This document shows positions 29,206-54,378 of a stretch of 64,000 nucleotides of DNA, in pieces. Both the position numbers and the translations under genes were made by a program. The DNA is taken from the NCBI RefSeq assembly GCF_010501075.1, contig NZ_QVMN01000003.1, positions 200,292 to 264,291 of the forward strand, given 5' to 3'. Under the pieces are notes generated by a model. It worked only from the letters and a program-made list of their open reading frames with translations, was not told where the DNA came from and made no database searches. Every line of letters begins with the position of its first letter. The first letter of the stretch is position 1. The stretch is from Dysgonomonas sp. 25. GTDB taxonomy: Bacteria; Bacteroidota; Bacteroidia; Bacteroidales; Dysgonomonadaceae.

Positions 29206-29280
29206 AGCCCGACTCGGATTTTACTCCAAATCGGGCTATGTGCCTCTATTTATACTGTAAATATAATGCTTTTTTCTATG
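29206..29280 (-). promoter_or_regulatory. Late promoter and attenuator-like leader, copy A
   Basis: Read on the - strand: -7 element TATATTTA (29258-29265) with a CTTG 20 bp upstream. Then comes the box AGAGGCAC (29240-29247) starting 11 bases from the last base of the -7. A terminator follows with outer stem AGCCCGA/TCGGGCT (29231-29237 and 29206-29212), inner stem GGA/TCC and a T7 run. The lysis operon starts 30 bases later. The box can alternatively pair GGC with the GCC of the terminator stem, so it could act as an antiterminator. Confidence 0.7.
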
Positions 29281-29292
29281 CTTTACAAGTAT

Positions 29293-29766
29293 CTATTTTT
29301 GCGTATTCTTCAACTGTTCTTTTAGTGCATCAATATCTTTTTTCTGGTAATCTACTGTCGCCTCTAATTTTCCGATTTTCAGGTTTGCTTGACTTAATTT
29401 GTCATAAGCCTCTTTTAAATCCTTAGAAGAATCAGGATTGATAATATTCAAACTATCCGCTTGGGGAGCGTTCATCATAGCATTATCAGACAATGTAGCA
29501 CTATTGTTGTATGTAAAATTCTTCGCTGCTTCTTCCAAATCAAATTCCTTTAAAAACTCTACTGGAACTTCATAGTAATTAGCAAATTGTTGTAATATTT
29601 CATCGGAAATAGTCTCCGATATTTCAAGCTCGTAAATTCTACTTTGAGTCATATTATTGTCTTTGGCAACTTGTGATTGGGTTCTTCCCTTATAACTTCT
29701 CATTGCTCTCAACAATCTGCCCTGATGAGTTTTTTTATTTATTGGTTTTTCTACAATTTCACTCAT
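29293..29766 (-). CDS. XRE-family regulator with coiled-coil tail
   Basis: 157 residues from the ATG at 29766 (MSEIVEKPINKK); the TTG six codons earlier is not preferred. HTH at about residues 17-60 (RLLRAMRSYKGRTQSQVAKDN, MTQSRIYELE), then a linker and a C-terminal coiled coil (LKIGKLEATVDYQKKDIDALKEQL). It lies upstream of the lysis operon promoter and is transcribed in the same direction. It is the third HTH regulator of the prophage and may control late or lysis timing. Confidence 0.75.
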   Translation of the reverse strand: MSEIVEKPINKKTHQGRLLRAMRSYKGRTQSQVAKDNNMTQSRIYELEISETISDEILQQFANYYEVPVEFLKEFDLEEAAKNFTYNNSATLSDNAMMNAPQADSLNIINPDSSKDLKEAYDKLSQANLKIGKLEATVDYQKKDIDALKEQLKNTQK

Positions 29767-30162
29767 ATTTTTTCTTTTTTTCAAATATATACAATAAAAG
29801 TATAATATGCTTACTCCAAAATTACTATATATAATCTGAAATTAACATAATTTCGCAATCATAAATTGTTAAAATAATTAAACAGCTATAACTCAACCAA
29901 TTAGTCATTTTTACCGAATAGTTAATTATCAAAATATTTCAATTACATTTGTCAGTATTAACAAAATGGCTTATACGGAGTCGAAACCCTGATGTTGTAG
30001 AAGGATTGTAGCATACGCAAAACATATAATCCAGCCTGTCAATATATACCAAAATAGTCGAGCTTGCTCACTGCCTTTTTACAACGGTCTTTTCAAAAGA
30101 GGTCTTTTTTTTATGCATATCTACAAGCACCGCTTAATTGATAAGGTACATTGATTAAGCTC

Positions 30163-30188
30163 AGGGGCGCAATTAATGCGCCCCTTTT
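30163..30188 (+). terminator. Strong GC-rich terminator in the 29767-30311 gap
   Basis: AGGGGCGCA (30163-30171) and TGCGCCCCT (30177-30185) form a perfect 9-bp stem with a 5-nt loop, then TTT. The gap of 545 bp holds no ORF that I can support. A weaker hairpin, AACCC/GGGTT, lies near 30285-30296 just beyond the stop of the giant tail gene and may end the leftward tail transcript. Confidence 0.7.
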
Positions 30189-30311
30189 ATTGCTCTATAC
30201 AGATATTTCTTTCAACTTTAGACCTTAATACCAATTTTCAATGCTACACACGCCCTCTAACGATTGCAGATAATCATGGAGTAACCCGTGAAGGGTTGCT
30301 CTTTGATTTAG

Positions 30312-33300
30312 TTATCGAGGCCAGTAATTAAACATCCAGTATTGCCCGTCAAAGATAACTACGCTCGTGTCTCCCCTTCCGTTTCTGTGCCACAAATCAT
30401 TAACTATATTACCATCAGTATGTATTTGTTTGCCATTGCCGTAAATATGAATATTTTTAGCATTAACCCGTCTAATAAGTATGCACGTTCCCTCATACGG
30501 ATTAGCAGGCAAAAAAAGATTTATATCGCTCGTGCTGTTATAGCATGATACATAAGTATCACCCTGATTTAATGTTGTTGTCGCAGATATGCGTCTTACG
30601 CCGAAACACAAACCATTAGCTTTCAGTATATCAAACCATCCTCCGTATGCAGGGGCGGGATTCGAGGCTGAATTGCTTGCCCGTCCAAAAACGCCCACAA
30701 GCCCCCAATTGTTGAAGTAAGATTTATTCATAGCCCCAAACCCCAATCCTGCAATAGAAGCTTTTATATTATAGCCTGTGGTTGCGGAATAAGGACTTAC
30801 CCCCGCACGGTTAGCCAAAATACCCTGTGAACTCATATATGCCGTATTGTAATCACTGTCTCTCGATTCAAATACCCCGTTCGAAGCATCAATCTTAGTA
30901 GTCTGTGTTACAGTCTTTAGCCCATTAGTTTCGGTGTAAATCGTCTGGCTGTTCTGAAATTCGATTTTTCTGTTCTGGCTGTCTATTTCCAATGATTGAC
31001 CATCCGCTACACTCTTGGAGTAAAAACGACCATTATTCTGTACCTCGAACACACTTGTCCCGTCAGCCGTCTTTACAGATAGATTTTGTGCTTCAATAGC
31101 TTTAGCAATCGTATGTCCGTTTAGCTCTATTGTTTTAGCCCCTAAAGAAATTTTATTGTCGGTCAATGTCAGGCTCGAACCCGCAATTTGCCCTATATCT
31201 TCTGGTGCTGGCTGCCAATCAGAAGGCTTGGTCGATTTCTCTATCATCAGGTTTTTTATAGCAACCGAACCTGTCATATTATCATGTCGCATATTAATGC
31301 TAAAAGTGGCATTTGTAGCTTGTTGAGCAGACAGGGTAAAAGAATATGCTACTTTTATCTCACCCGTTCCGCTAACTCTACTTACTATACTATGACTTGT
31401 AAATCCAGCCGTCCAGCCTGTCACATTTCCAGAACCTTGAAAGGTTAAATAAGGGTTTGCATTTTTTACTATATTTTGGAATTTATAGTCGAAAGACACC
31501 GTTATTACATCACCAGCTTGCCAGTTTTCGGCATTGACAGTATGCCCGAAAAGACACTGATTGATAGTATTGGTAAGAGTTACCATATTGCTCCAATCTT
31601 TCGATGTCTTTAAAGCATAATTCCTTCCTCCCACCTGTATTTTACTCACTTCGAGGCGTATGTCGCTGGCTGTCTGATTTATCTTCGAGTACAAAGTTTC
31701 GCCATTACCTAATGAATTTACGCCTGTTTTCTCGACAACCGATGTTATGCGGCTATCCGTCTGCTCGATTCGACTCTTACTGACATATACGTTAATCTGT
31801 TGCCACGTAGAGCCATTCCAGCGATAAGTTAAATAACAACCATCAGTAAGACTTATCTTATACCACAGGTCGCCAACTCTGTGACCGCCTTCGGGAACTG
31901 CGGGTGTCGTATCAGAATAATAGGTGCGATTCTTTGAATTAGCCGATGCCTGAGCGTTGTTAGCGACTGTTTGTGCTGTATCAACCAAAGCCTTTGCCTT
32001 ATCTGTAACACCCTTCAATAATGCAATTTTAGCATCATAGTAGACTTTAAAATTATTTCGGAATGTAGTACCTGCAATAGTGCTGTTTATTGTAAGGTTT
32101 GTCAACAAAGGGGTAATATAACTATTCAGTGCATTGTAGGCATTAACGTAAGTTGTAGTCGCTACGCCGTAAGTGTTCGCCTGTGCTACCACTGTCGAAT
32201 ATTCCCCTTTGATTATATTCCATTCTTTTAACGCTTCCTGCTTCTCGCTTGGTGTTAACAGATTATCATTCGCTATTTCCGATAATTTAGTATTTGCCGT
32301 ATTAGCCGATGTCTGGGCGTTATTAGCGGCTGTTTGCGCTGCATTAGCTTTCGTATCATCCGTATATTTAGTTGTAATTTTCCAATCCGAATCGACAAAC
32401 GCCCCCGATGTACGGGTATTTTGGCTTTGCTTTATCGTTCCGTCATAAGTTACCCACAAATCGCCTTTGGCGTATGGTACTGTCGGGCGGTCTGTGGCAG
32501 CAGAAGTATAAGATTTGTAGACAGAATTTTTGCCTTCCACTTTTGTTATAGTAGATGAAATCTGCCCTGCCTGTTGCTCTATTTTCGATTCCGTAGTTGA
32601 TACTCTGCCTTGCAGGGAATTGAAATCGGTTTGGCTTACTTTCGAAGAAACAGAATCACTCAGGACTTTCAACTCCGATTCGACAGACTTACCCGTAGAT
32701 TCAATGATAAAATTTCCTTTAAATTTATTCCCGGAAGGAGATATAACAGTAACCTCTTTGCCTGTCAGATTAAAGGAATTTATACCAGCATATTGTTTGA
32801 TAGAAGGGGCATCAGAGCCATAAGAGGAAATGATGATAGCCGATTGCCTTTTAGCATCTGTCCTGTTCCCGAATTGGATTATATCATCCCCCTTAGTCGG
32901 TATGTCCGACCCGTCAGCATCCGTTTTTGATAATACAATATAATCACTTCCCACAGCCAGAACCCGCCTCCAATAATATTTCATGTCCTGACCGTTGAAT
33001 TTTCGGCAAATGGCTTGGTCATTTATGACAAACTGATTTAGTATTTTTCCGTTATCTGTCTCGAAGAAACACTTATACCCATCAGTCTGAATCTCCACTT
33101 TGGAGCATACCATACTGGCAGGGGAAACTAAAATCTGACCTCCTACGCTCTTTATTTCAGCGACAGAAAGAGTGCTGAAAGTCGTCTCACGCCTTACGAA
33201 CAGATTATCGAGTTCGGCGTATGACTGACCGTTATTGGCATCTTTCCAGATACGAAAACCTGAGCCAAATTGACCTGACGTAAATGTATCGTTCCCGAAC

Positions 33301-35192
33301 TGATTGGATATGACTTGCCCTTTGCTCGTGATGTCCTTGTGTACCGTCAAATCCTTTTCAATAGATAAACTTTGTATAAACCGCAGATTACCCTCTGCAT
33401 CATCATCTTTCAATCGGCTAAGAAAATAATGCGTACCCAATGAAAGTATCAGCGACTTTACTTGCTCCAGTGTTACCCCTGTATTGTTTGTGATAAGCTG
33501 GTTAATGGAATTTTGAATTTTATCCAATGTTCCTGCCACTTGTTCGTTGCTCAGTGTTACATCGTATGTCGGTATGAGTTTAGTGCCGATGTTTATTTTT
33601 AAAGATTGAATAATAACCGAAGCGTCAATATTCAGGTCTGTATCATCGAAATTCAGAATATCGCCCTCCTTTATGCTTTCGCCCAATTCAGGATTGTTAG
33701 CCATGAATATCTCGTCTATCTTAGGCGTATAGGTGAATTTCGTTTTGTCGTTCTCCGATAAATATTCCTCAGCCGCTACTTTCAGTCGTTGTGCCGCAGC
33801 TTTGATATACACATCGGGCATTTCAATTCCCAAAATAACAAATTTGTCGGCAGCATGTATCTGATAATTGTTGTTAGGAAATGCGACACCGCCACCAATC
33901 GCATCATCGGTAAAACGCTTACACCTTACCACATATCGGGTATATCCAAGTGATGTATCTTTGGTTATTCCTCTCTCCAATATATCGAAAGTCCTTCCGA
34001 CACACATACCGCTTTTCATCGCTATTTGCATTGTATCGGTGGTAGCATACTTGTATTGCCCGTCACTGTCTTTGGCGGCAATATCAAAACCTAAATCTTT
34101 CAGGTAAATAGTAAATGATTCAGGAATTTCGCCTTCTCCCTTTTGTGGAATCTCACCGCTATCTGTCGGATTCTCGGCACTTAGCACTTCATCAATATTG
34201 CCGTTGTCTCCATATTTCAGGCTTACACTTATTCCCGCATTGTTTAGTTCCGTTTGTGTCATACCCTCCAACGAAGGAAAAATATCAGGTAGTTCTTTGT
34301 CTGAACCGTCAAAATAGATACTCCCTTCACGTAAGCCATATTCAGCAATAGTATTCGAATCGAGATATACTTTCGAAGGGTCGGAAATCACAATCGGAAA
34401 CTCAGGCAACATCAAATTAGGGATATACACACTATCCTTTATATATTGCTTCCCGCTTCCGTCTTTTAGCTTGTTATAATACTTGTGAGGAATATTTCGG
34501 GTGCTGCCATAAGCTCTCAGTCGGGTTATTATTTGAGCGTCCTGATTCGTTGTTTGCTGAATGTCGTATAAGCCTTTTCCCTTGCCGTAACCAAAAACCT
34601 TTCCTACCGCAATACCCGCCGTTCCGATTGTTATAGTACGGTTTCTGATAATAAAGTTCGCACCGAACTCAGAGTTGGCTAATCCCAATGCTTCCCAACA
34701 TGATATTTTATTGATTGTAATATTTTTATCAGAAGTAACAGAGTCAGGCGAAACAATAACAGTCCATTTTTCATCGCCACTATATACCCTGTCAAGGTTT
34801 GCCTGTAACCTGTCGGCTAAGTCCTGCACACTGTTCGCATAGAATGAAAATTCCGAAAGGCTGGTATAATGGATTTTATTATCAAAAAGAACAACGTCCA
34901 AAAATTCCACTCGTGTCAGTTCGTCCGATAATGAGTTGAACTTTATGTTATCATAGACAAATGCTGCCCCGTAAGTACCCTTTCGGGCTTTTTTCTGTTT
35001 GGGAGGAATATAATTCAGGACAAATTTCTCATTCCTGAAATGAAAGTAATCTCCGATTTCAAAATCTATCGGTGTAGGAGACTCAAATTTTGCCGAGACA
35101 AAACACTCTCCTAAGAAAGTTCCGTTATAAGTAAGTTTGTGTAGTTCGGCTTTTGGAGTAAGCCCGTCTTTTGAGTAAAGTGTAACTTTCAT
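30312..35192 (-). CDS. Giant phage tail protein (tail-associated protein/receptor-binding fibre)
   Basis: 1626 residues. About the first 560 residues resemble the baseplate hub/tail-associated proteins of siphophages (KVTLYSKDGLTPKAELHKL, a GEYLSENDKTKF-type middle). A long region with coiled-coil and short repeat motifs follows (QTAANNAQTSANTANTKLSEIANDN and similar). A CBM-like sandwich comes next, ending in EKSTKPSDWQPAPEDIG, typical of phage tail tips (about 1190-1335). The last 280 residues are a beta-rich fibre end with VGVFGRASN and a compact tip. It should bind the host surface. It is coupled by a 4-bp overlap to the upstream gene, probably a distal tail protein. Confidence 0.85.
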   Translation of the reverse strand: MKVTLYSKDGLTPKAELHKLTYNGTFLGECFVSAKFESPTPIDFEIGDYFHFRNEKFVLNYIPPKQKKARKGTYGAAFVYDNIKFNSLSDELTRVEFLDVVLFDNKIHYTSLSEFSFYANSVQDLADRLQANLDRVYSGDEKWTVIVSPDSVTSDKNITINKISCWEALGLANSEFGANFIIRNRTITIGTAGIAVGKVFGYGKGKGLYDIQQTTNQDAQIITRLRAYGSTRNIPHKYYNKLKDGSGKQYIKDSVYIPNLMLPEFPIVISDPSKVYLDSNTIAEYGLREGSIYFDGSDKELPDIFPSLEGMTQTELNNAGISVSLKYGDNGNIDEVLSAENPTDSGEIPQKGEGEIPESFTIYLKDLGFDIAAKDSDGQYKYATTDTMQIAMKSGMCVGRTFDILERGITKDTSLGYTRYVVRCKRFTDDAIGGGVAFPNNNYQIHAADKFVILGIEMPDVYIKAAAQRLKVAAEEYLSENDKTKFTYTPKIDEIFMANNPELGESIKEGDILNFDDTDLNIDASVIIQSLKINIGTKLIPTYDVTLSNEQVAGTLDKIQNSINQLITNNTGVTLEQVKSLILSLGTHYFLSRLKDDDAEGNLRFIQSLSIEKDLTVHKDITSKGQVISNQFGNDTFTSGQFGSGFRIWKDANNGQSYAELDNLFVRRETTFSTLSVAEIKSVGGQILVSPASMVCSKVEIQTDGYKCFFETDNGKILNQFVINDQAICRKFNGQDMKYYWRRVLAVGSDYIVLSKTDADGSDIPTKGDDIIQFGNRTDAKRQSAIIISSYGSDAPSIKQYAGINSFNLTGKEVTVISPSGNKFKGNFIIESTGKSVESELKVLSDSVSSKVSQTDFNSLQGRVSTTESKIEQQAGQISSTITKVEGKNSVYKSYTSAATDRPTVPYAKGDLWVTYDGTIKQSQNTRTSGAFVDSDWKITTKYTDDTKANAAQTAANNAQTSANTANTKLSEIANDNLLTPSEKQEALKEWNIIKGEYSTVVAQANTYGVATTTYVNAYNALNSYITPLLTNLTINSTIAGTTFRNNFKVYYDAKIALLKGVTDKAKALVDTAQTVANNAQASANSKNRTYYSDTTPAVPEGGHRVGDLWYKISLTDGCYLTYRWNGSTWQQINVYVSKSRIEQTDSRITSVVEKTGVNSLGNGETLYSKINQTASDIRLEVSKIQVGGRNYALKTSKDWSNMVTLTNTINQCLFGHTVNAENWQAGDVITVSFDYKFQNIVKNANPYLTFQGSGNVTGWTAGFTSHSIVSRVSGTGEIKVAYSFTLSAQQATNATFSINMRHDNMTGSVAIKNLMIEKSTKPSDWQPAPEDIGQIAGSSLTLTDNKISLGAKTIELNGHTIAKAIEAQNLSVKTADGTSVFEVQNNGRFYSKSVADGQSLEIDSQNRKIEFQNSQTIYTETNGLKTVTQTTKIDASNGVFESRDSDYNTAYMSSQGILANRAGVSPYSATTGYNIKASIAGLGFGAMNKSYFNNWGLVGVFGRASNSASNPAPAYGGWFDILKANGLCFGVRRISATTTLNQGDTYVSCYNSTSDINLFLPANPYEGTCILIRRVNAKNIHIYGNGKQIHTDGNIVNDLWHRNGRGDTSVVIFDGQYWMFNYWPR

Positions 35193-35644
35193 TTGAATAA
35201 GACTATATCTGCAATAGGATTATTAACTTTCAGCTTCACAGAGAATACGACAATATCGTCCTGACCGTCACGCCTGTATAACACATCTTCGGAATAACCC
35301 ATGTATCGCACATTGGTTCTACCTATTCGGGTATAAGTGTCGTATATATTGAAGCTCCCACCCGAAGCCAGATAAGTGAGGAATTGTTTTATCCGGGTAT
35401 TAGCGGTTCTATGTACTCCTACATAGACAAATTCACATTCCATTTCGTAGGCTTTGAAATAAGGTGTGTCAGGGATATATTCATCATCCCCCTGTTCGTC
35501 CATCCAATTACGGGAAGGAATATCTTTCAAGTCGGGAAATAGTTTGAATGGAATACTCTTTACATAAATACCCCATTCCATACTATCCCTTACAGCCATG
35601 TTTCCTGCCAACTTTTGAAAAAAGCAAGGTTTATAGTTTTGCAT
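35189..35644 (-). CDS. Distal-tail-like phage protein
   Basis: 151 residues; beta-rich (FVYVGVHRTANTRIKQFLTYLASGGSFNIYDTYTRIGRTNVRYMGY, shown in part as ANTRIKQFLTYLASGG). The size, strands and place directly upstream of the hub/fibre gene fit the distal tail or adaptor protein of a siphophage. It is the first gene after the late leader copy B. The 'GACACAAAC' element lies 6 nt before its start. Confidence 0.6.
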   Translation of the reverse strand: MQNYKPCFFQKLAGNMAVRDSMEWGIYVKSIPFKLFPDLKDIPSRNWMDEQGDDEYIPDTPYFKAYEMECEFVYVGVHRTANTRIKQFLTYLASGGSFNIYDTYTRIGRTNVRYMGYSEDVLYRRDGQDDIVVFSVKLKVNNPIADIVLFK

Positions 35645-35668
35645 AAGTTCGTTTGTGTCAAATAAAAA

Positions 35669-35751
35669 AGCCCGAACCGGATTTTACTCCAATTCGGGCT
35701 GTGTGCCTCTGTTATCTATACAAAGATAGTTATTTTCTATTTATATTCAAA
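35669..35751 (-). promoter_or_regulatory. Late promoter and attenuator-like leader, copy B
   Basis: A textbook Bacteroidetes promoter on the - strand: TTTG (35748-35751), a 19-bp spacer and TATCTTTG (35721-35728). The box AGAGGCAC (35703-35710) starts 11 bases after the -7, exactly as in copy A, so it lies within the first bases of the transcript. The terminator follows: AGCCCGAA (35693-35700) with TTCGGGCT (35669-35676), inner GGA/TCC and TTTTTT. Copies A and B are almost identical over about 47 bases. The tail operon begins just downstream. Confidence 0.8.
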
Positions 35752-36079: not shown

Positions 36080-36784
36080 CTATATTCTGAAATATTCATT
36101 TAATATTTCAGAATTGTCATGTTTAATATTGTCTATATTGTATTTTATTTTTCCTGCCTCAAGTAAAATTATTTTATCACATAAATCATTTATATAGTTA
36201 ATATTATGACTGGATATTAAGATTGTCTTATTATTCATTTTGCCGTAAGCATTTATTATTTTATTCAGTATTGATTGAGAAGTAGGGTCTAAAAAGTTAA
36301 AAGGTTCATCCAATATTAGAATGTCCGGAAAGGGTAACATGGCTCCTATGATGCCTATCTTTTGTTTATTTCCTTTAGAATAGGATTGGATATATTTCTT
36401 CTTGTCAAGGATTTCATTATTCATAAAATCCGCGAATAATTCTATTCTTGAAACATAATCATTATCGCTAATCTTATATACATCTTTTATTAAATGGAAA
36501 TATTCTTCTGGATAAAGAAAATCTATTAAAAACTTCTCATCAATATACGAACCTGTATATTCTTTCCATTTATTTGATTCTCCGACGGATTTACCATCAA
36601 TTAATACTTCTCCATTTGTCGGTTTTAGCAAATCAAGAATTAATTTGAACAAAGTTGTTTTTCCCGAACCATTATTACCTATGAAACCTACCGTTTGGTT
36701 GGTTTGAATGGATAGAGTCGGAATGTTTAAGCTCTCAACTTCTTGTTGGAATTTTTTAGTAATGTCTTTTAATTCAATCCTCAT
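36080..36784 (-). CDS. ABC transporter ATP-binding protein (bacteriocin immunity/export candidate)
   Basis: 234 residues: Walker A GNNGSGKTTLF near residue 37, signature-like YSKGNKQKIG near 138 and Walker B ILILDEPFNFLD near 154. It overlaps the membrane gene upstream by 11 bp. ATPase-plus-membrane-protein pairs of this small kind often provide self-immunity to bacteriocins (LanFEG-like) or export. It lies at the 3' end of cargo module 1. The region is visibly more AT-rich than the phage genes. Confidence 0.8.
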   Translation of the reverse strand: MRIELKDITKKFQQEVESLNIPTLSIQTNQTVGFIGNNGSGKTTLFKLILDLLKPTNGEVLIDGKSVGESNKWKEYTGSYIDEKFLIDFLYPEEYFHLIKDVYKISDNDYVSRIELFADFMNNEILDKKKYIQSYSKGNKQKIGIIGAMLPFPDILILDEPFNFLDPTSQSILNKIINAYGKMNNKTILISSHNINYINDLCDKIILLEAGKIKYNIDNIKHDNSEILNEYFRI

Positions 36785-37457
36785 TGCCCATCTTTATTTT
36801 ATTATATCTATTCTTTATATAATATTTCGCCAAATTTGACAACCATATTCTGTGTGTAATAATAAGAAGAAAGGACAAAATAATCATCGTATAATATAAT
36901 TCTTCTGTTGTTAACAAAAAACTCAGTCCTATCACAATCAAAAAGAATATGATATATCCAATGCAGGATATTAAATATTGACTCATATTTGTACCTTGCC
37001 AGTTCATAAAATTACCCATTTGTAAGTCTAATTTTTTAGTGCTAAAACGTGAAGTTTGAAAAGCAATAAATAACAATATTCCGATACCCATTATATAATA
37101 TGTAATAAATTCCAGAATTGTCACTCCTTGTATGGAGGTGGGGAGTAATAATATCACCATTATCAAGGAGATTAGAGAGTATAAATAATATTTTTTGTAC
37201 AAAATTATTTCTAACGATAGAGGTATAGTTAATAATTTGTTAATGTAATTGGCTTCAATACTAAAAAAATATTGAGCATATATACAGCCAGCCATTGAAA
37301 TAACCATTGGGTAAAAGACAATTCTGCATATCGCAGAATTAGCAAAAAAATCACTTGAAAAGATTTGAAAATAGATAAAACCTATAAAATAAACAGATAT
37401 TAACAAAGTCTGTTTGAGCCTTTTATTTCTTAATATTAACGCTAACTCGAATTTCAT
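36774..37457 (-). CDS. ABC transporter membrane protein of cargo module 1
   Basis: 227 residues with about six hydrophobic segments (TLLISVYFIGFIYFQIF, IILYKKYYLYSLISLIMVIL, YLISCIGYIIFFLIVIGLSF). It is the likely permease partner of the ATPase at 36080, with which it overlaps. No conserved motif identifies the substrate; immunity to the module's own peptide is inferred from context. Confidence 0.7.
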   Translation of the reverse strand: MKFELALILRNKRLKQTLLISVYFIGFIYFQIFSSDFFANSAICRIVFYPMVISMAGCIYAQYFFSIEANYINKLLTIPLSLEIILYKKYYLYSLISLIMVILLLPTSIQGVTILEFITYYIMGIGILLFIAFQTSRFSTKKLDLQMGNFMNWQGTNMSQYLISCIGYIIFFLIVIGLSFLLTTEELYYTMIILSFLLIITHRIWLSNLAKYYIKNRYNKIKMGNED

Positions 37458-37468
37458 ATACTCAAAAA

Positions 37469-38122
37469 TTAAACATTTGATTCCTCAAATTGGGTGTAAA
37501 TTGCTTTTTTTAAAAAACGCCTGTCAATCAACAAAATTCCTACTCCAAATAAGATTAGAAGAAAGAAAAACAACTCATCTATTAGAATTAAAGAATAAAC
37601 TAAAACAATTAGGAGTAAAAATGCTAAGTATAATAGAAAAGAGACATTCTTACTAACAAAATTATTAATAAAAAATATACAGTAGGTATTTACAATAATA
37701 AGAAAATAATAATTTAAGAAAAACAATGGTGTAACAGTTGTACTATCTCCTTCAAAAAGTATAGACATTAGATAAAATAAAATCACTATATCACAGAATA
37801 TCCATACATTTATTATCTCTAATAATAATATACAATTTAAAAAATTATTTCTTTTAAATGGTAATGTCCAATATGGTATAACTTTTATATAGGTGTTCTT
37901 AAAGAAGAATTTAAGGGTATAATCTGATATTATAACTATTAGAGGGAGTAAAAAGCCATGTACTGAATAGGTAATAATCTTTAACGAGTAACAACAAGCA
38001 AAGAATAAAATCATTACTAATAATATTTTGAACACTAACATACCTTTTTCTTCTTTTCTAAAAGAAGAAAGACACCTATGTTTAATTAAAATTATAAATA
38101 ATCCAATAAGACTTTTTCCCAT
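37469..38122 (-). CDS. Second membrane protein of cargo module 1
   Basis: 217 residues, about six membrane segments (ILLVMILFFACCYSLKIITY, NVWIFCDIVILFYLMSILF, LLYLAFLLLIVLVYSLIL). It lies 11 bp before the permease gene and 22 bp after a strong hairpin that separates it from the peptide gene. It could be a second permease subunit of the ABC immunity transporter. No family recognised. Confidence 0.6.
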   Translation of the reverse strand: MGKSLIGLFIILIKHRCLSSFRKEEKGMLVFKILLVMILFFACCYSLKIITYSVHGFLLPLIVIISDYTLKFFFKNTYIKVIPYWTLPFKRNNFLNCILLLEIINVWIFCDIVILFYLMSILFEGDSTTVTPLFFLNYYFLIIVNTYCIFFINNFVSKNVSFLLYLAFLLLIVLVYSLILIDELFFFLLILFGVGILLIDRRFLKKAIYTQFEESNV

Positions 38123-38144
38123 TTATTTTATGTTCAATATCAAA

Positions 38145-38172
38145 TCCTGTAAGGAGAAATCTCCTTACAGGA
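38145..38172. terminator. Perfect 13-bp hairpin between peptide and immunity-type genes
   Basis: TCCTGTAAGGAGA (38145-38157) and TCTCCTTACAGGA (38160-38172) are perfect complements with a 2-nt gap. It starts 11 bp after the peptide stop codon on the - strand and has no strong T tract in that direction. A partial terminator or 3' protective stem that raises peptide mRNA relative to downstream genes is likely. Confidence 0.65.
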
Positions 38173-38182
38173 CATTTTTACA

Positions 38183-38377
38183 TTAACTAACAGCTTGGTT
38201 TATACAACTCATATATTGATAATAAGCATATCCAAAACCAGCAGCCCCGATAACAGCCCCAATTCCTGTACCAAAAGATGCAGCCCAGCCTACAGCAGCA
38301 ATCATACAGCCCGCATATTCTGATGCACAAGCACCACCACGTACCACTTCCATTTGTTCCAAAGATAAAGTTTTCAT
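38183..38377 (-). CDS. Double-glycine-leader bacteriocin-like peptide 1
   Basis: 64 residues. The leader MKTLSLEQMEVVRGG (15 residues) has the pattern used by C39-peptidase exporters (L-S/x-L-x-x-M-x-x-V-x-GG). The predicted mature part is 49 residues with three Cys (mature positions 2, 9 and 43) and a central Gly/Ala-rich hydrophobic stretch. That stretch has Gly at mature positions 21, 25 and 29 (a GxxxGxxxG zipper), as in membrane-inserting class II bacteriocins. The exporter gene is 60 bp upstream and a CxxC thioredoxin-like gene beyond it, so disulfide bonds are plausible. Antimicrobial activity is inferred, not shown; a signalling peptide is the alternative. Confidence 0.75.
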   Translation of the reverse strand: MKTLSLEQMEVVRGGACASEYAGCMIAAVGWAASFGTGIGAVIGAAGFGYAYYQYMSCINQAVS

Positions 38378-38437
38378 AATAATCTACGGTTAACCACCAC
38401 CGTAAGTTTTAAATTAAAAAATTAGTAGATTGATATA

Positions 38438-40549
38438 TTATTGAATCAAGTCAATAATCCGGTTATTTTCGATTCTATATGTTTTGTCTACTATTGAATC
38501 GAATATTGAAATGTCATGTGATATAAATAGTATAATAAGATTCGGCTTTATTTTTGCTAATAATTGGTATATTATTTTTGCTGAATCTTTATCCAATGAT
38601 GATGTTGGTTCATCCAGAAATAATACTTGCGGATTATCATATAAAGCGCGGAGTATTCCTATTATCTGCTTTTGTCCTCCTGACAGGCTTATCCCTTCTT
38701 CTCCAACTTCTGTATATATATTCTGTGGAAAATCATTGAAAAAAGTAAGCAGGTTCAATTCTTGAATGAGTGAATTAATCCTATCTACATCTAAAGATTT
38801 AGTCATTGTAATATTAAAGAGTATATTTCCATTAAAAATATGCACATTCTGAGGCACAACTCTTATCCTATCTTTTATATATTTCTTATCTATATCAGAT
38901 AAATTCAAATCATTGTAAAAGATATGCCCTTCATTCACCTGATAATTACCTAATAATATATCGAGCAATGTACTTTTTCCAACACCGCAGTTCCCTGTCA
39001 AGGTGGTAATTGTCCCTTTTTTCAATTCAAGAGTCGCCTTACTGTATAAGCTTTTGGCAATGCCTGCATATCCAAAGGATATATTTTCTGCCTTTATTGT
39101 TTCGATAACCCCAGCGATTTCCTCAGTATTGTCAACTTCATCTTTCTTTATATTCATTATATTGTACATTCGCTCGAATGATATTTTTGCTTCTGTAAAT
39201 GGAATAAATAGTAAAGAAAAGTTTGTTGTGGAAGATATAATAAGACCTGAAATACTCAATAATGCAATTAAATCGCCAATTGATAGCAAACCTAAGCCAA
39301 TATAATAAATACTCAAACTGATAATACTAATTAAAAAAACTGTCGAAAAAATACTGATTATTGCATTTAAACTTACATAGATACTGGCTAAAGAAAACCT
39401 CTTGGCTTGGTATTCTTCAAATAGCTTACCATTGTGTTGGGCAAAATATTCTTCTCGATTCATGTTCTTAATATCCGATATTCCTGAAATTGTGGAAATA
39501 TAATTCGCTTCGGTAAGAGCATAATATACTTGAACTTCTCGCTGTCTGCTGACAATATTTTTACTTTTTATCATAATCAGACAAACCAAAACAGGAATAA
39601 AACAAAGAGCAATTATTCCTACTGGAACAGAATAGTAAAATATTAATATAACCGCAACAATAACCGTAAGTATATCGTTTATATAGTTACTGAAAAACAG
39701 TTGTATTACAGATTGTATTTTGGTGGTATCGTTTATTCTGGCTACTAAATCCCCAACCTTCCGAGTATTGAAAAATGGTTTTGGTAGGAGCAAGAGGTTT
39801 TCATAAAAAGTATTGGTTATCCTATTATTGAACTGGCGGCTTTGGTAGTTAAATAAAGTACCTTTTATATAAGCCAAGCCTGTTCGAGTTATTAGTAATA
39901 TACCCAAAACTATTATACTCCCGATTATCTTAGTTGAATTTTGAGAAGGTAGAATATTATCCACAAGCTGCTGTGAATAGACCGAAAGGGATAGCCCCAA
40001 TATAGAAATGATAAGGCTGAAAAAGAGTCCGTGAAATAGAATTTTCTTGTCTTTGGTTATGAGATTGGTGATAAACTTACGTTTATCCTTTTTGTAATTT
40101 TTTATTTCATATATATGCTCATAATCTTCATCGGGGATAACCGTCAGGCAATATTGTCCTTCCCAGATTGTTTCCAATTCGGTTTTATTTAGTTTCTGTA
40201 TTCCTCTCGCTGGGTCGCCAATTATGTATTTTTCACTCTTCTTGTCGTAATAAAAGAAAACGACATAATGCAAAAAGCCATCTATTGATACTCTCAAAAT
40301 AATAGGATAGACGCTTTTTTCGAGTTCTTCGGTATCTCCTATGCAACCTTCCGATTTAAAACCTACTTTATTGGCACATTGGTATAGCCCCGCTAAAGTA
40401 GTCCCTTCCTTTGTCGTCCCACTTAAATATCGGAGTTCTTCAATAGATTTGCTCCTATTATAGTATTTCAGAACCATCATCAGGCAGGCAATACCACAAT
40501 CGGCTTTATCGTGTTGGAAGAACAATGATTTTTTAACTTTTCCTATCAT
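38438..40549 (-). CDS. C39-peptidase-containing ABC exporter (PCAT) 1
   Basis: 703 residues in three parts. The N-terminal C39 peptidase (1-135) has Gln12, catalytic Cys18 in KADCGIACL, and the His/Asp segment GFLHYVVFF and IGDPARGI. A six-segment ABC membrane domain follows (about 160-440). The ATPase has Walker A GNCGVGKSTLL, signature LSGGQKQI and Walker B VLFLDEPTSSLD. It cuts the leader after Gly-Gly and exports the peptide; the substrate is most likely the peptide encoded just downstream at 38183. It overlaps the thioredoxin-like gene by 17 bp. Confidence 0.93.
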   Translation of the reverse strand: MIGKVKKSLFFQHDKADCGIACLMMVLKYYNRSKSIEELRYLSGTTKEGTTLAGLYQCANKVGFKSEGCIGDTEELEKSVYPIILRVSIDGFLHYVVFFYYDKKSEKYIIGDPARGIQKLNKTELETIWEGQYCLTVIPDEDYEHIYEIKNYKKDKRKFITNLITKDKKILFHGLFFSLIISILGLSLSVYSQQLVDNILPSQNSTKIIGSIIVLGILLITRTGLAYIKGTLFNYQSRQFNNRITNTFYENLLLLPKPFFNTRKVGDLVARINDTTKIQSVIQLFFSNYINDILTVIVAVILIFYYSVPVGIIALCFIPVLVCLIMIKSKNIVSRQREVQVYYALTEANYISTISGISDIKNMNREEYFAQHNGKLFEEYQAKRFSLASIYVSLNAIISIFSTVFLISIISLSIYYIGLGLLSIGDLIALLSISGLIISSTTNFSLLFIPFTEAKISFERMYNIMNIKKDEVDNTEEIAGVIETIKAENISFGYAGIAKSLYSKATLELKKGTITTLTGNCGVGKSTLLDILLGNYQVNEGHIFYNDLNLSDIDKKYIKDRIRVVPQNVHIFNGNILFNITMTKSLDVDRINSLIQELNLLTFFNDFPQNIYTEVGEEGISLSGGQKQIIGILRALYDNPQVLFLDEPTSSLDKDSAKIIYQLLAKIKPNLIILFISHDISIFDSIVDKTYRIENNRIIDLIQ

Positions 40550-41051
40550 TCTTATCTTTTATTATCTGTTCTACTCTTACAGCCCCTTTATATGTTTTAT
40601 ACAATTCTCCATCGACATACAACAAGGTAAAAGGAGTAGTAGGAATATCGTAGCTGGTTATGAATGAGTAATTTTTATCACGGAGGAATTGAAATTGACT
40701 ATCGTCCAGATTATATGATGCAATAAATTCTCCAATTTCTTCATTTGTATTATTTGAAATAAAAATAACTTGGCTATCATTCAGTTCCCCTCGCAATCTG
40801 TAAAACTCTTTTATTTCTATATGGCAGATTTCACAAGTGGTATTGAAATAGACAATTATAGTATTTCCTGTACAAATATCATTCAGTTTTACAACCTCGT
40901 TTTTCAAGTTATAAACTTCTATTTGTGGTACTTTTTCTACTACACTCTCTGTAAGCATCATATCATTTTTCTTTTCCTGTATTTTAACAACAAGTAATAT
41001 CATTACTCCTACAAGACATAAAGCAAAAATGATTAGTAATACTTTTTTCAT
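40533..41051 (-). CDS. Membrane-anchored thioredoxin-like (TlpA-type) protein
   Basis: 172 residues: an N-terminal membrane anchor (VLLIIFALCLVGVMILLVV) and a thioredoxin fold with YFNTTCEICHIE (CxxC) and the cis-Pro segment DIPTTPFTLLY. It would face the periplasm and make or isomerise disulfides. Overlap with the exporter gene and the three Cys of the peptide suggest it matures the exported peptide. It lies 1 bp after the membrane gene at 41053. Confidence 0.8.
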   Translation of the reverse strand: MKKVLLIIFALCLVGVMILLVVKIQEKKNDMMLTESVVEKVPQIEVYNLKNEVVKLNDICTGNTIIVYFNTTCEICHIEIKEFYRLRGELNDSQVIFISNNTNEEIGEFIASYNLDDSQFQFLRDKNYSFITSYDIPTTPFTLLYVDGELYKTYKGAVRVEQIIKDKNDRKS

Positions 41052-41052
41052 T

Positions 41053-48147: not shown

Positions 48148-48902
48148 TTAGGTAAGCTCAGACAGTTTCTTTTCCTGCCATTCATTATCTCTGTTTCGTT
48201 CTCTCGCTTTTCGCAGCGATTCCTCATTTAGCCGGATGCTTTCTTGGTCAGCAAATTTTCGTTTGTGTGTATCTTCTTTGTCATATACCACTCGTGTTAC
48301 ATCAAGTATCATCAATTCATATTTTGCCACAGACCCTTTAAATCTGTACATATATTCAGGAATGACAATCAATCCGAAAAAGAGGACTAATGGCTGTAAC
48401 ACCCAAGCATGGTCTTTTCCTATTGCTGCTCGGCTTCCGATGAAAGTACGTGTCGGAATCGCTCGGCTTCCTCCATCGTCATTGTCATATTCGTTATTTT
48501 CATACGTGCGACCAACGCTAAACCGATGTACCAACTTGCCGCAGGAACTTTTTTTTTAGCAAGTACAAGGATAGGCTCTAATTGGTCAAAGGTGTAGCCT
48601 CTCAGGTAGTAGAAGTATCGCCAGTAGAACCAATGGAAAAAGAAAATCTTTATACCATTCAATAGGCAGAGAGAAGCCGCTTTCGCCATGAATTTTGACC
48701 GTTGTTCGATAACCTTTTCCGAATCGGCATCATTTTCTTTCAGACCTTCTTTCAGTTCCAGTTTTGATAGTTTTTCCAATGTGTAACCTTTCATCCATCC
48801 TACTTTCAATATTTTGTTAGTACGTGGAATGACTATATCTTCTTTTTCATTGTTTTGGATTGACAGTAAATCCTTTTCATCTTGTATGCTTGGTTCTTGC
48901 AT
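48148..48902 (-). CDS. Tail assembly chaperone G-T fusion by -1 frameshift
   Basis: Two overlapping frames. The zero frame runs from 48902 to 48420 (160 residues). The other frame ends at 48148 and has no ATG in its first part (only TTG). They are joined at a run of nine A (- strand, 48557-48549): codons read GCT AAA AAA AAA GTT in frame zero and continue AGT TCC in the -1 frame. A -1 slip there gives a 251-residue product (118 + 133). Overlapping chaperone genes with a slippery run just upstream of the tape measure are typical of siphophages (lambda gpG/gpGT). Efficiency is unknown. Confidence 0.8.
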
Positions 48903-48930
48903 GATTGTGAAGTTTGAGTTAAAAGAAAAA

Positions 48931-48952
48931 GGGAAGGGAAGATTCCCTCCCC
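48931..48952 (-). terminator. Terminator-like hairpin after the tail tube gene
   Basis: GGGAAGGGAA (48931-48940) pairs with TTCCCTCCCC (48943-48952) with one imperfect pair; the A-rich stretch at 48921-48930 gives a U-rich run on the - strand. It would reduce read-through from the abundant tube protein gene into the chaperone genes. Confidence 0.6.
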
Positions 48953-48980
48953 CTGTGGGATTGTGTTAAGGTTAGGAGTC

Positions 48981-49520: not shown

Positions 49521-49523
49521 GTG

Positions 49524-51378: not shown

Positions 51379-51381
51379 TTA

Positions 51382-52542
51382 TCACGCAATAGTTAGGTAC
51401 GTCATATATTGTGGCTTATCAGGCACAACTAATGCAGTAAGCTCGGACTCGATATACTGAGTATTGGTTTTGGTATCATACCATTGTTTCAATATTGTGC
51501 GTCCTCTGTCATACCATGCGAATCGAGCCGCAGGGTCAGGAACGGCAATAGGCTCTACTGCTTTTATCGTTCCAAGTTTTCCGTCAGGGACGAGTACCCA
51601 TACATCAGATTTGAAAGACCTCATTTGGTCTTTTACTACCTTACCCTCTGTCTTGTCAAATTTCTCAACTGCTACGATATTGTCAATTACCTTAATAGGG
51701 CAGCCGATAATACCTTCCAGTTTCGATTTGATTACGGATTCATCCAATACTGCTCCTAATGCTGCAATATTAGCAGGGTCGGCAAGTGGATGGATATTCA
51801 GGGCTACCGCAGTTCTGATTTTCGAGTGTTCGATGCATCTACGAAAAGTCAGGTAATCTACTTCGAAGTGCATTGCAGCTACACCACGCTTTTTCAGGTC
51901 ATACACTTGGTCTTTCAAGTTTCTGATTGGGTCTGACGCTGTACCTTCCGTGTTGTTATCATCCGTAAACCAGCGTTTTGCCGCAGTCAGTACAGTTCTG
52001 TTTTTGTCTGGGATTCTTGCAGAGAAAGTAATGTTCTTGATTCCCGCAGGATTGTTAGTCGCATCCAGAACGAAAGTCCCTGTCGAAACCATTTGGTCAC
52101 GCTGATAAGTCATAGCGTTATAGTTCCCACCAATTAGTTTTGATGTGTGGTCAAACACAAGGTCACGCATTTTCGTACTCAGGTTCGTAGAGAACTTACC
52201 TGTTCTTTGTGCGAAAATCATTTCCTCACGGAGTATCTTTTCGTTCAATGCGTACCCGTGCTTCATTCTCGGTATTGTGCCGGAACTAAGCTCGAAACCT
52301 TCATGGTGTTTATACACGCTTGGAGAATCCACGTCTACATAAGTAGGCAATGTGTTTAGTCCCAATTCAGCCTGTATCTGATGATAGGTAAAGTCAATCT
52401 GAATGTCACTATCCCATTCAAATCCATCAGTTTTCTTTCCATTGTGTAGATTGGCAAGATAGGTGTCTACAAATTCCTGATAAGATTCATTGGCGAAGCC
52501 ATACTTTATCAGGTCATAATGTGTGTTGTCTCTTGGTGTCAT
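51382..52542 (-). CDS. Major capsid protein
   Basis: 386 residues. Fits a phage coat protein in size and place: scaffold and a small structural protein upstream, connectors downstream. Features include a helical N-arm (DTYLANLHNGKKTDGFEW), a long spine-type helix (EKILREEMIFAQRTGKFSTNLSTKMRDLVFD in part) and a beta-rich P-domain-like part (GIIGCPIKVIDNIVAVEKF, VWVLVPDGKLGTIKAV). Probably HK97 fold; not proven by motif. It is 3 bp downstream of the 52546 gene. Confidence 0.8.
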   Translation of the reverse strand: MTPRDNTHYDLIKYGFANESYQEFVDTYLANLHNGKKTDGFEWDSDIQIDFTYHQIQAELGLNTLPTYVDVDSPSVYKHHEGFELSSGTIPRMKHGYALNEKILREEMIFAQRTGKFSTNLSTKMRDLVFDHTSKLIGGNYNAMTYQRDQMVSTGTFVLDATNNPAGIKNITFSARIPDKNRTVLTAAKRWFTDDNNTEGTASDPIRNLKDQVYDLKKRGVAAMHFEVDYLTFRRCIEHSKIRTAVALNIHPLADPANIAALGAVLDESVIKSKLEGIIGCPIKVIDNIVAVEKFDKTEGKVVKDQMRSFKSDVWVLVPDGKLGTIKAVEPIAVPDPAARFAWYDRGRTILKQWYDTKTNTQYIESELTALVVPDKPQYMTYLTIA

Positions 52543-52545
52543 AGT

Positions 52546-53163
52546 TTAGATTCCTTTTACGAATTTTATCATTGGCAGCACTGCCTTTACGCACTCTGGA
52601 ACAGGCTGAATCCTGTCCTCCATTACCTCGCCGTGATATACGGAAGCAACTGTCGCAGCCTTATCTCCGTCCTCTACCCATACGTCATTTTCTGTTATCC
52701 CTGTCGGCACGGCAAAAATTTTCGCTCCCGTACCCGCTTTGGATGCTTTTACCAAAATGTCCCCTTTTGCCAATACGCCGAAAGCGTTTGCAGCAATGGT
52801 GAATTTGTACAGGTTATTTCCAGAATCAAGTGCAGTCCCCGAAACTGTTACGCCAGTTCCGGCAGTAGTCAGCGCAGCAGGGGATTTCATCAGGTTCAAT
52901 CCGTCTTTGAGTACGCTGCCGTGTGCAAATACCTTCACTTCTGTATCTGTCGCAGACACAGGTTCGGCAACTTCGAAGGTTTCAATAACCTTCGCCACAT
53001 TGTCATCAAGATGTACCAATGTTCCTGCCCGAAGTACAGTTCCGATAGGAGGAAGTTCTTCAAGAACGCCCCCACCTCTCTCTTTTTGGCTCACGGTCAG
53101 CCATACGGGATTTGAGCCTCCGTAGGTTTTCTTTTTTTGACCGTAGGTGTTAAATGTTCCCAT
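52546..53163 (-). CDS. Head decoration/fibre-like structural protein
   Basis: 205 residues, beta- and Gly-rich (GGGVLEELPPIGTVLRAGTLVHLDD, TGVTVSGTALDSGNNLYKFTI) with low charge, typical of capsid decoration or head fibre proteins. It lies between scaffold and capsid genes. CTAACACAAAC lies 12 nt before its ATG. Confidence 0.6.
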   Translation of the reverse strand: MGTFNTYGQKKKTYGGSNPVWLTVSQKERGGGVLEELPPIGTVLRAGTLVHLDDNVAKVIETFEVAEPVSATDTEVKVFAHGSVLKDGLNLMKSPAALTTAGTGVTVSGTALDSGNNLYKFTIAANAFGVLAKGDILVKASKAGTGAKIFAVPTGITENDVWVEDGDKAATVASVYHGEVMEDRIQPVPECVKAVLPMIKFVKGI

Positions 53164-53190
53164 TGTTTTGTAATAGTTTGTGTTAGTTTT

Positions 53191-53829
53191 TTATTCGGTT
53201 ATTCTACCTGTTTGTTTGAGGTGATCCATATAAGCATCTTTATCTTTTTTACTTATTCCACCCCCATAACCGCCTCCATAAGCAGGGACATAGCTGTCGA
53301 TATTCAATTTAGCGTAAGCCTTGTCATACTTAGTTTTTCCCGCTTTTGCTAAATCTTCAACAGTAGTATTTTCGTTTATTTCCAGCAAGGGAAGTATTAG
53401 TTCCAATACTGTTTCATCCAAAACTCCGTCCTCCTTCATTAGCATGACTGCATCGTCAAGCATTTTTTGTTTCTTTGCGGCGGTCTGTTTAGCCAGTTCA
53501 GCGTCTTCAAACTTTTTCAGGCGTGACTCGATGTCACTAAGTTTTTCATCCTCTTTTTCTGGCTTCTGTGGTTCAATTGTCTGTTTCGGCGGATCCGGTT
53601 TGTAATTCTTTTTGAAATCATTGACCCGTGTCGCCACTTCATTATTCAGTTGTCCGTTAAATGACTTTAGCACATTCGCATGTTTAGCCAGATACTCGCC
53701 TCTCTTATCTTCCTCGCTCGGAAGAAAGGGCATAACTGAATTATCCAGATAATCGTTCCATGTTCTCTCGGAAAGGCTGTTTTCTCCTACCATTCCTTTT
53801 AGTTCCGTTGAAAGTTTTTCTTTCTCCAT
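53191..53829 (-). CDS. Capsid scaffold protein
   Basis: 212 residues, strongly charged and helical (EKEDEKLSDIESRLKKFEDAELAKQTAAKKQKML in part), with a Pro-rich middle (KPDPPKQTIEPQKPEKE) and a Gly-rich turn (AYGGGYGGG). This is the usual composition of phage scaffolds, directly upstream of the capsid genes. It starts 52 bp after the leader copy C. Confidence 0.75.
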   Translation of the reverse strand: MEKEKLSTELKGMVGENSLSERTWNDYLDNSVMPFLPSEEDKRGEYLAKHANVLKSFNGQLNNEVATRVNDFKKNYKPDPPKQTIEPQKPEKEDEKLSDIESRLKKFEDAELAKQTAAKKQKMLDDAVMLMKEDGVLDETVLELILPLLEINENTTVEDLAKAGKTKYDKAYAKLNIDSYVPAYGGGYGGGISKKDKDAYMDHLKQTGRITE

Positions 53830-53880
53830 GTAGTTTGTAAGTTTGTGTTTGTACTCGTAAAATGTTGCGGTCTAAGACCG

Positions 53881-53931
53881 AAAAAGCCCGAATACAACTG
53901 TTTATCAGTTACATTCGGGCTTATAGCCTCT
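53881..53931 (-). promoter_or_regulatory. Attenuator-like leader, copy C (intercistronic)
   Basis: On the - strand: box AGAGGC (53926-53931), then AGCCCGAAT (53913-53921) pairing with ATTCGGGCT (53885-53893), inner stem ACTG/CAGT and TTTTT. No -7 element is seen before it, so it would be read by transcription coming through com. The inner stem differs from the other copies but pairs, so it covaries. In this copy GGCT can pair with AGCC (4 bp) as an alternative fold. Confidence 0.7.
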
Positions 53932-54011
53932 TAATTGGGATTCTACTCCCTTATGTCTTAGCGGTATGTATTACAAGCCTTGCTGGTGGAGAACAGCAAT
54001 CAATACTCCCG

Positions 54012-54203
54012 CTATTGTTCTATCAATACTACTCTCTTACAACTACGGCATTTTATTTCTATTGCAAAATCTTTTCCTTTGAGGACTTCAAAAAGCCTTT
54101 TCTCGCATTGCGGGCATACTACCCAATTTTGTTTTTTCGTATAGGAATAAGTGTAGTTGCATTTTCCTGTTTGTGTCTCTGTATCCTTTTTGAACCTATC
54201 CAT
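54012..54203 (-). CDS. Com-like zinc ribbon protein
   Basis: 63 residues. WVVCPQCEKRLFEVLKGKDF followed by IEIKCRSCKRVVLIEQ gives a CxxC...CxxC zinc ribbon with the CxxCxKxLF...IEIKCxxCK pattern of the Com family. In phage Mu, Com is an RNA-binding activator of mom translation. No mom-like gene is visible downstream; the next genes are scaffold and capsid, so it may act on late mRNA instead. It is the first gene of the leftward late operon from the divergent promoter at 54223-54254. Confidence 0.7.
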   Translation of the reverse strand: MDRFKKDTETQTGKCNYTYSYTKKQNWVVCPQCEKRLFEVLKGKDFAIEIKCRSCKRVVLIEQ

Positions 54204-54222
54204 TTAAGGTCATTCGTTTCGA

Positions 54223-54326
54223 CAAATATACATACAAATGTATTAATATGCAAATATCGGGCGGTTTAGACTGTATATTCGCAAAAATATACAATATTTA
54301 CTATATTTGCATGTATAAATATACAT
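54223..54326. promoter_or_regulatory. Divergent late promoters with three palindromes
   Basis: Leftward: TTTG (54251-54254), 20-bp spacer and TATATTTG (54223-54230). Rightward: TTCG at 54279-54281 region, 20-bp spacer and TATATTTG (54302-54309). Three dyads are interleaved: ATACAT-acaa-ATGTAT (54228-54243), TGTATATT-cgcaaa-AATATACA (54272-54293) and ATGTAT-aaat-ATACAT (54311-54326). The first and third are mirror images of one another. A regulator binding them would control both halves of the late genes together. Confidence 0.7.
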
Positions 54327-54328
54327 TT

Positions 54329-54378
54329 AGAGGCACGATAGCCCGATGTTCCCTTTAGGGGGAGTATCGGGCTTTTTT
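54329..54378 (+). promoter_or_regulatory. Attenuator-like leader, copy D
   Basis: Box AGAGGCAC (54329-54336), AGCCCGAT (54340-54347) pairing with ATCGGGCT (54366-54373), inner stem CCC/GGG and a T6 run. It lies 20 bases after the -7 element and directly before the terminase start. The outer stem has T/A where copies B and C have A/T, and the inner stem is different but paired, so sequence varies while pairing is kept. Confidence 0.75.

Follow-up and report, generated by a model that had tools for sequence, protein, structure and literature searches.

Covarying AGAG/CC leader hairpins and Com-like zinc ribbons suggest a candidate antitermination switch for phage late operons

Introduction

Selection of RNA ligands (systematic evolution of ligands by exponential enrichment, SELEX) with the Com protein of Haemophilus sputorum yielded two GAG(N)2CC cores arranged symmetrically about a stem of 3-4 nucleotides (nt) of free sequence, with a C-G closing pair and the loop motif CC(N)2-3GAG; in bacteriophage Mu, Com binding is thought to alter a neighbouring RNA structure (Nowacka et al. 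2019, PMC6483171). In ANTAR target RNAs the antiterminator and the terminator are mutually exclusive (PMC3369936), and phage proteins of the lambda Q or AlpA type carry polymerase past a promoter-proximal terminator (PMC9371919). Com in late-gene control or antitermination was not found in searches of the open literature, with subscription papers and preprints outside their scope (PMC3091744 included), and no description of late-gene control in Bacteroidota phages was found in the open-licence papers searched. Here we analyse a prophage in a 64,000-nt stretch of Dysgonomonas sp. 25 (contig NZ_QVMN01000003.1, positions 200,292 to 264,291; hereafter the window, whose numbering is used throughout). 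Its late operons are preceded by a repeated leader, an AGAGGC box followed by an intrinsic terminator whose 5' arm is able to pair with the box, and a gene for a small zinc ribbon resembling Com lies beside one of the copies. Judged from sequence comparison, these leaders are probably Com-dependent transcription attenuators or antiterminators of the late operons.

Results

A repeated leader precedes the late operons

The preliminary description had proposed four leader copies, and all four were recognized on reading the sequence; the extents it gave held for A and B, and those for C and D were wider, taking in the U run. Leader A, before the lysis cassette, occupies 29200..29247 (-) including its U run (29206-29247 from box to stem end). 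It consists of AGA (29247-29245), a strand S1 (GGC, 29244-29242), its partner S1' (GCC, 29236-29234) and the terminator stem (29237-29206), followed by the U run, and a -7-like TATATTTA stands at 29265-29258 (-). Leader B (35664..35710, -; box to stem end 35669-35710) precedes the gene 35189-35644 and the gene for a 1626-aa tail protein (30312-35192), with AGAGGC at 35710-35705, the terminator stem at 35700-35669, a U run and a -7-like TATCTTTG at 35728-35721. Leader C (53881..53931, -; box to stem end 53885-53931) precedes the head operon; AGAGGC lies at 53931-53926 and the terminator stem at approximately 53922-53885, again with a U run, and neither an adjoining promoter-like element nor a TAnnTTTG element was found there. 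Leader D (54329..54378, +; box to stem end 54329-54373) precedes the terminase large subunit and portal genes, and comprises AGAGGC (54329-54334), the terminator stem (54340-54373) and a U run, with a -7-like TATATTTG at 54302-54309. The spacer from AGAGGC to AGCCCGA measures 4, 4, 4 and 5 nt in A, B, C and D.

A fifth leader (E) of the same prophage was found 12.8 kb to the right of the window (G000:C32:277075-277120, -), before a gene that is small-terminase-like on a reading of its translation. The exact pattern AGAGGC-N(2,8)-AGCCCGA-N(3,30)-TCGGGCT has five matches in the host's own genome (3.74 Mb, 58 contigs), all within the prophage, and the pattern read backwards has none; a looser pattern added two unconvincing sites elsewhere in the genome, versus nine for the reversed control. 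Host-type -7 elements (TAnnTTTG or TTTA) precede the motif by 10 bases in both A and B, by 11 in E and by 19 in D. The earlier claim that the box starts 11 bases past the -7 element in A and B was correct: 10 bases intervene and the box begins at the 11th. Rfam returned no family match in the window or at the leaders, and at 14 loci of other phages it reported tRNA, group I intron and int-alpA families only, none of them at a leader.

Three features were noted around the leaders. In leader D an AT-rich near-palindrome, ATGTATAAATATACAT (54302-54328, +), separates the -7 element from the box; it is also seen in relatives of leader D with a gap of 18-22 bases between these two elements and is a possible operator. 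The inner loop of terminators A (29206-29237) and B (35669-35700), GGAGTAAAATCC, recurs as GGGAGTAGAATCCC at 53942-53960, just upstream of leader C, and a related phage (L024) carries GGGAGTAAAACCCC at the same place. The small-terminase leaders of three phages (E, G298 13452 and L019) keep both box and hairpin.

The box:arm hairpin covaries in related phages

Terminase relatives were collected from genomes (16 loci) and from viral contigs (71 loci). The leader layout recurs upstream of the terminase gene, with other letters, in related phages whose terminases are approximately 49-89% identical. A second Dysgonomonas alginatilytica prophage (L026/L048) carries AGAGAC..AGUCC in both copies (GAC/GUC), Dulem virus 40 (Dulem40) AGAGCUU..AAGCC (GCUU/AAGC), LoVEphage AGAGCUU..AGGCC, and two further loci AGAGGU..GACCC (L067, GGU/ACC) and AGAGUUC..GGACC (L054, GUUC/GGAC). 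A large number of terminase relatives, chiefly of rumen or Prevotella-like origin, lacked any leader at the terminase gene.

At least 3 bp can form between the box, from its fourth nucleotide, and the start of the terminator arm in 28 of 29 instances of this arrangement (type I below). Random S1 strands gave a mean of 6.5 and a maximum of 16 of 29, and shuffling the boxes among instances gave at most 27 in 5000 trials. Where the box does not read GGC from that nucleotide on, 14 of 15 instances pair, a figure matched by 8 of 5000 shuffles; these statistics are guides only, since the related sequences are not independent.

The preliminary description had argued that structure is conserved because the inner stems of the four copies differ and yet always pair. 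That pairing is present, and as covariation it is weak evidence within the window, because pairing is common to all terminators and A hardly differs from B; it is the other phages that supply the strong evidence. The compensatory changes there support the further proposal that the box pairs with the terminator arm as an alternative structure, and the box:arm hairpin appears to be under selection.

The core occurs in two permuted topologies

In a scan of related loci, 24 of 75 terminators with an open reading frame (ORF) behind them had AGAG close to the beginning of the stem, versus 4 of 58 others. Two arrangements occur. Type I reads AGA-S1-loop-S1'-C, and type II reads S1-C-N-AGA-S1', as in AAGC-CAAAGA-GCUU, GAC-CAAAGA-GUC and GGC-CUGAGA-GCC. 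Both have a G:C end pair whose G is preceded by AGA and whose C is followed by another C. Type II is a circular permutation of type I, and in both the 3' strand forms the base of the terminator. Pairing is seen in every one of the 26 type II instances (the script scored 25, and L052, which it misread, was checked by eye), and all 26 have C after S1, 18 of them having come from patterns that did not require this C.

In leader-rich phages the element precedes three to five late operons, and in 6 of the 15 sources scanned the head-operon leader has a tRNA gene immediately before it. The leader core, with AGAG on one strand, CC on the other and a short variable stem between, resembles the Com SELEX motif; it was derived before the SELEX paper (PMC6483171) was consulted, though the Mu aptamer was known before that reading. 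The loop motif CC(N)2-3GAG is found in type II leaders of relatives (N 2-4), and the Mu record contains TGA[ATGC]CTGCGA[GCAT]C, which holds both the outer and the loop form.

A Com-like gene accompanies the leaders

Between leaders C and D lies a 63-aa zinc-ribbon ORF (54012..54203, -; CPQC ... CRSC). It shares the strand of leader C, which it precedes by 81 nt, and has its own promoter-like TATATTTG at 54230-54223 (-). Like Com-family proteins it has about 60 aa and a single zinc ribbon built on two CxxC motifs; CxxC variants occur in some relatives (L047, L067, L068). We call it Com-like because only profiles link it to Com, at a level below PF10122, and a PF10122 search of the host genome gave nothing over the cut-off. 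In hhalign, the clade proteins scored 97.6% against other-phage Com and 85.2% against Mu Com, and Mu Com matched the hidden Markov model of the other-phage proteins at 9.3e-13 (Z = 1000).

We tabulated 40 clade loci, namely terminase relatives of at least 45% identity with duplicate sequences removed, plus L137, which entered from the pattern search and hence has a leader by construction. A Com-like ORF was counted when the profile matched at E < 1e-3 on the head-operon strand between the head leader and the terminase gene. Such an ORF is present in 25 of 25 loci with leaders (8 of these proteins sit in the profile itself) versus 0 of 15 without; among the latter, the start of the terminase gene was not captured in L053, L058 and L093, and the upstream sequence of L093 and L076 is short. 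The count includes three loci (L078, L092, L089) rescored to leader-bearing after sequence reading: the profile had found 24 of 24 leader loci and 1 of 16 others, L089, which then proved to have a leader with a weak U run. A profile of nine clade proteins alone recovered 23 of 24 leader loci, missing L047, and a plain cysteine pattern recovered 18 of 22, the remaining four being found by the profile.

Leaders and Com-like ORFs recur in other phages

The terminator pattern AGAGCTT..AAGCCG matches 56 stretches in viral contigs and once, unconvincingly as a terminator, among 393 bacterial genomes of the order; the two counts do not compare densities, and the case for other phages rests on gene context and com. 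Among the matches listed, no trinucleotide precedes GCTT..AAGCCG terminators as often as AGA does (7 of 109 distinct cases, the next having 4). Matches of the AGAGGC pattern outside the clade had been put down to chance; the AGAGCTT scan and the downstream genes overturned this view, and those matches are part of the other-phage set of 42 leaders (50 before repeats were dropped).

Downstream proteins in this set match portal, head protease, terminase or connector families in 18 of 29 cases (two of the 18, L225 and L233, are terminases of or near the clade), versus 1 of 10 control ORFs (10 of 11 were used; Fisher p 0.008). The 29 also include one match to a protease family of kind 'other' and one to an endolysin. 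Some of these leaders have a tandem hairpin in front with the AGA and C flanks: when the best upstream hairpin was taken in 36 cases, AGA preceded it in 8, each of which also has C after, versus 4 of 302 hairpins before ORFs in control contigs, none with C after, the 12 test contigs of this comparison having been picked by eye.

Com-like ORFs were found within 700 nt of 29 of 42 other-phage leaders versus 1 of 102 control terminators among the matches listed, and the single control positive is a weak match (E 0.007). Eight of the 29 positives are in the profile and four are clade-like (L225, L229, L233, L251); with these 12 rows removed, 17 of 30 remain. Among the matches listed, the clade-only profile found 16 of 42 versus 0 of 102 controls, and the plain cysteine pattern 13 of 50 leaders versus 0 of 73 controls. 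The control terminators came from the GCTT scan (at least 120 stretches; 115 loci were used in the final count). PF10122 scored above 22.9 bits for 4 of 8 other-phage leader-side proteins (L226, L206, L205, L250), fell below the cut-off for L227 and L199, and was not listed for L214 and L234, where L214, L199, L234 and L226 were searched without the residues preceding the first Cys; the clade proteins L052 and L048 had no PF10122 match.

At the inspected sites near portal-type genes, no type I leader was seen in Freya_1, vir555, DC33, BPP-1, epsilon15 or Carin1; in vir555 a head gene is preceded by a terminator whose stem contains AGAG. The scope of the earlier proposal of phage-wide late-gene control was too narrow, as the element extends beyond this prophage and its clade.

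Genes behind the leaders and neighbouring modules

Behind leader A, the lysis cassette (27486..29175, -) comprises 28873-29175 (unknown), 28552-28866, an endolysin gene (28049-28591) and an Rz-like gene (27486-28052), the last two named from their matches. The 1626-aa protein behind leader B has tail-fibre matches, and in the head operon behind leader C (53191-53829, 52546-53163, 51382-52542 and further genes, -) the genes that follow 53191-53829 include ones with major-head matches. The terminase large subunit gene (54391..55986, +) probably starts at 54391; the start in the ORF list, 54346, falls inside leader D. The portal gene (55974-57557, +) lies behind it.

Within the head-tail operon, a G-rich terminator-like hairpin without an AGAG box (48929-48954, -) precedes a gene for a protein of about 160 aa (48420-48902), and several relatives have a G-rich terminator ahead of the orthologous gene, even in loci without AGAG leaders there. 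Genes for peptidase-containing ABC transporters lie between late phage modules at 36080-41709 and 60531-63822 (-), the right-hand set adjoined by an HlyD-like gene, and are possibly prophage cargo. A long perfect inverted repeat beside transporter genes (38144-38173) would form a terminator-like hairpin on both strands. To the right of the window, VgrG-like (L020 6422-8605) and PAAR-like (L020 1870-2214) proteins are encoded on the minus strand between late modules, labels that come from reading the translations and not from a family search.

A protein of about 130 aa (L020 931-1329, window coordinates ~64639-65037; LoVE 5587-5994) was considered as a regulator. By BLASTP it is present, in places other than the head and tail operons, in 7 of 7 leader-rich and 0 of 3 leader-poor phages. 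With a profile, however, 14 of 17 genomes or records had a match, leader-poor ones with divergent homologues among them, and the candidate was rejected; we regard it as a core family of these phages. The family had no Pfam or PHROGs match of note, and its AlphaFold model (predicted local distance difference test score, pLDDT, 78.6; predicted template modelling score, pTM, 0.52), with beta-strands followed by long helices, had no Protein Data Bank match at E < 0.001 and no viral match either (best 0.002).

Discussion

We propose that polymerase starts just upstream of the AGAG box and soon makes the intrinsic terminator, where it would stop by default; at the head-operon copy, it would arrive from the com gene or from upstream tRNA genes. 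The nascent RNA could instead fold into a hairpin of 3-5 bp in which the base of the terminator 5' arm serves as the 3' strand. This hairpin would carry a Com-like signature, one strand having AGAG at the end of the helix and the other CC, placed at the open end in type I and in the loop (CC-N2-4-GAG) in type II of the relatives. The 63-aa zinc ribbon (54012-54203, -) may bind and stabilise the hairpin, so that the terminator base cannot close and polymerase continues through the late operon. With com placed immediately before leader C, transcription of com itself should stop at C for as long as Com is scarce, which would make a delayed, self-reinforcing switch. The arrangement of the elements, the covariation of the hairpin, its overlap with the terminator, the two topologies, the co-location with com and the resemblance to the Com site were observed by computation; the binding, the block to termination and the feedback through leader C are inferred.

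Several observations weigh against this proposal. The mini-hairpin alone is weak (-2.5 to -2.9 kcal/mol, versus -22.5 to -24.0 for the leader fold) and hence needs help, and the head leader of L067, the sole type I exception, pairs over just 2 bp. PF10122 is not listed for the window protein at E up to 1, and for 13 of the 42 other-phage leaders the 700 nt around them yielded no Com-like ORF, the contig ending there in some cases. The U runs of the small-terminase leaders in all three phages seen are poor (TTTATT, ATTTG, TATTTT). Finally, the known role of Com in Mu is in translation, its target structure hiding the mom start codon, and RNA with the GAG(N)2CC part alone bound very little, the loop motif being dominant (PMC6483171).

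The translational role of Com and the poor U runs would fit an explanation in which Com binds the leaders and acts post-transcriptionally, as in Mu, opening or protecting the leader and so raising translation or mRNA life, the hairpin and U run being no working terminator in the cell. We consider this unlikely: the start codons of the genes behind the leaders lie past the hairpin and U run and not within the stem, most leaders have a G+C-rich stem with the U run directly after it, and the mini-hairpin always overlaps the terminator base.

Somewhat less likely still, the box:arm hairpin may be real while the factor is another phage or host protein, or RNA folding alone in the manner of put, with com a mere neighbour that travels with late modules. 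Com binding to the leaders is predicted, 13 other-phage leaders lack a nearby Com-like ORF, and all five leaders here are type I, with the outer AGAG..CC form only and without the CC-loop-GAG form that dominates in vitro. On the other hand, the Com-like ORF tracks the leaders through the clade, the leader core agrees with the SELEX motif, and a NusG paralogue (PF02357) was found in 0 of 7 phage records, possibly incomplete. The preliminary description had left the choice between put-like and protein-dependent control of the late operons open; attenuation or antitermination is supported by covariation, and the protein-dependent form is favoured because a Com-like zinc ribbon stands beside the head-operon leader in all 25 clade loci with leaders. 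Put-like and Q-like models fit less well: no promoter adjoins the head-operon copy, it is the RNA pairing that is conserved, and a protein gene tracks the leaders.

It is improbable that binding of Com, or of some late protein, to the leader promotes termination or limits expression as negative feedback; binding could in principle act either way, and com does lie upstream of leader C, but the signature hairpin excludes the terminator base, so stabilising it should oppose termination. That the leaders are ordinary terminators, with a box arising by chance or by copying of one duplicated sequence, can be dismissed almost entirely, even though terminators of the AGCCCGA..TCGGGCT kind occur widely and A closely resembles B. 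The box is present in five of five leaders of one prophage, AGAG is kept with compensating changes across terminases ~50% identical, a second topology exists, and the covariation and the co-location with com contradict this reading.

Returning to Com-dependent antitermination, a broader proposal seems to us slightly better than an even bet: that Com proteins are widespread phage late-gene antiterminators, zinc ribbons made just ahead of the head genes that load on a terminator-embedded, permutable AGAG/CC hairpin and open every late operon together, in phages whose hosts differ widely, the human gut LoVEphage among them, with the translational com-mom switch of Mu as one offshoot. LoVEphage has been induced from several gut Bacteroidota hosts (PMC12629997). 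If true, late control in a phage group that includes LoVEphage would gain a named kind of regulator, a binding site and a set of operons; Com-family proteins would have a testable job beyond mom control; and RNA recognition by a minimal zinc ribbon would be linked to transcription termination. Com-RNA binding is already known, and the data suggest a new role for an RNA-binding protein of an established kind.

Among described systems, com-mom of Mu (PF10122, Zn_ribbon_Com) shares a small zinc ribbon with four cysteines, whose gene stands immediately before the target. It also shares a short hairpin target with a C-G closing pair, a required GA and CC opposite (PMC6483171). It differs in that the hairpin here overlaps an intrinsic terminator before late operons, is present in several copies per phage and does not hide a start codon; in the four named phages examined, Mu, Chuche, Phipami28 and PAN70, Com is followed by a DNA-modification gene. 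The ribonucleic antiterminator (RAT) of the BglG/LicT type is alike in being a small protein-stabilised hairpin that shares the terminator 5' arm and so excludes the terminator, as found here. RAT is ~30 nt long with internal loops, and BglG/LicT-type proteins carry PRD domains, whereas a hairpin of 3-5 bp and a zinc ribbon are seen here. ANTAR sites are read in hexaloops, whereas the conserved letters here flank a helix end; the likeness lies in the mutual exclusion of antiterminator and terminator and in tandem hairpins, the second on the terminator, as in some other-phage leaders. The put RNA of HK022 is likewise a phage 5'-end leader RNA opposing termination, and it works without protein and is not known to share strands with a terminator. 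Proteins of the lambda Q/AlpA type load at a promoter DNA element, whereas here the head-operon copy has no promoter beside it and the conserved feature is RNA pairing.

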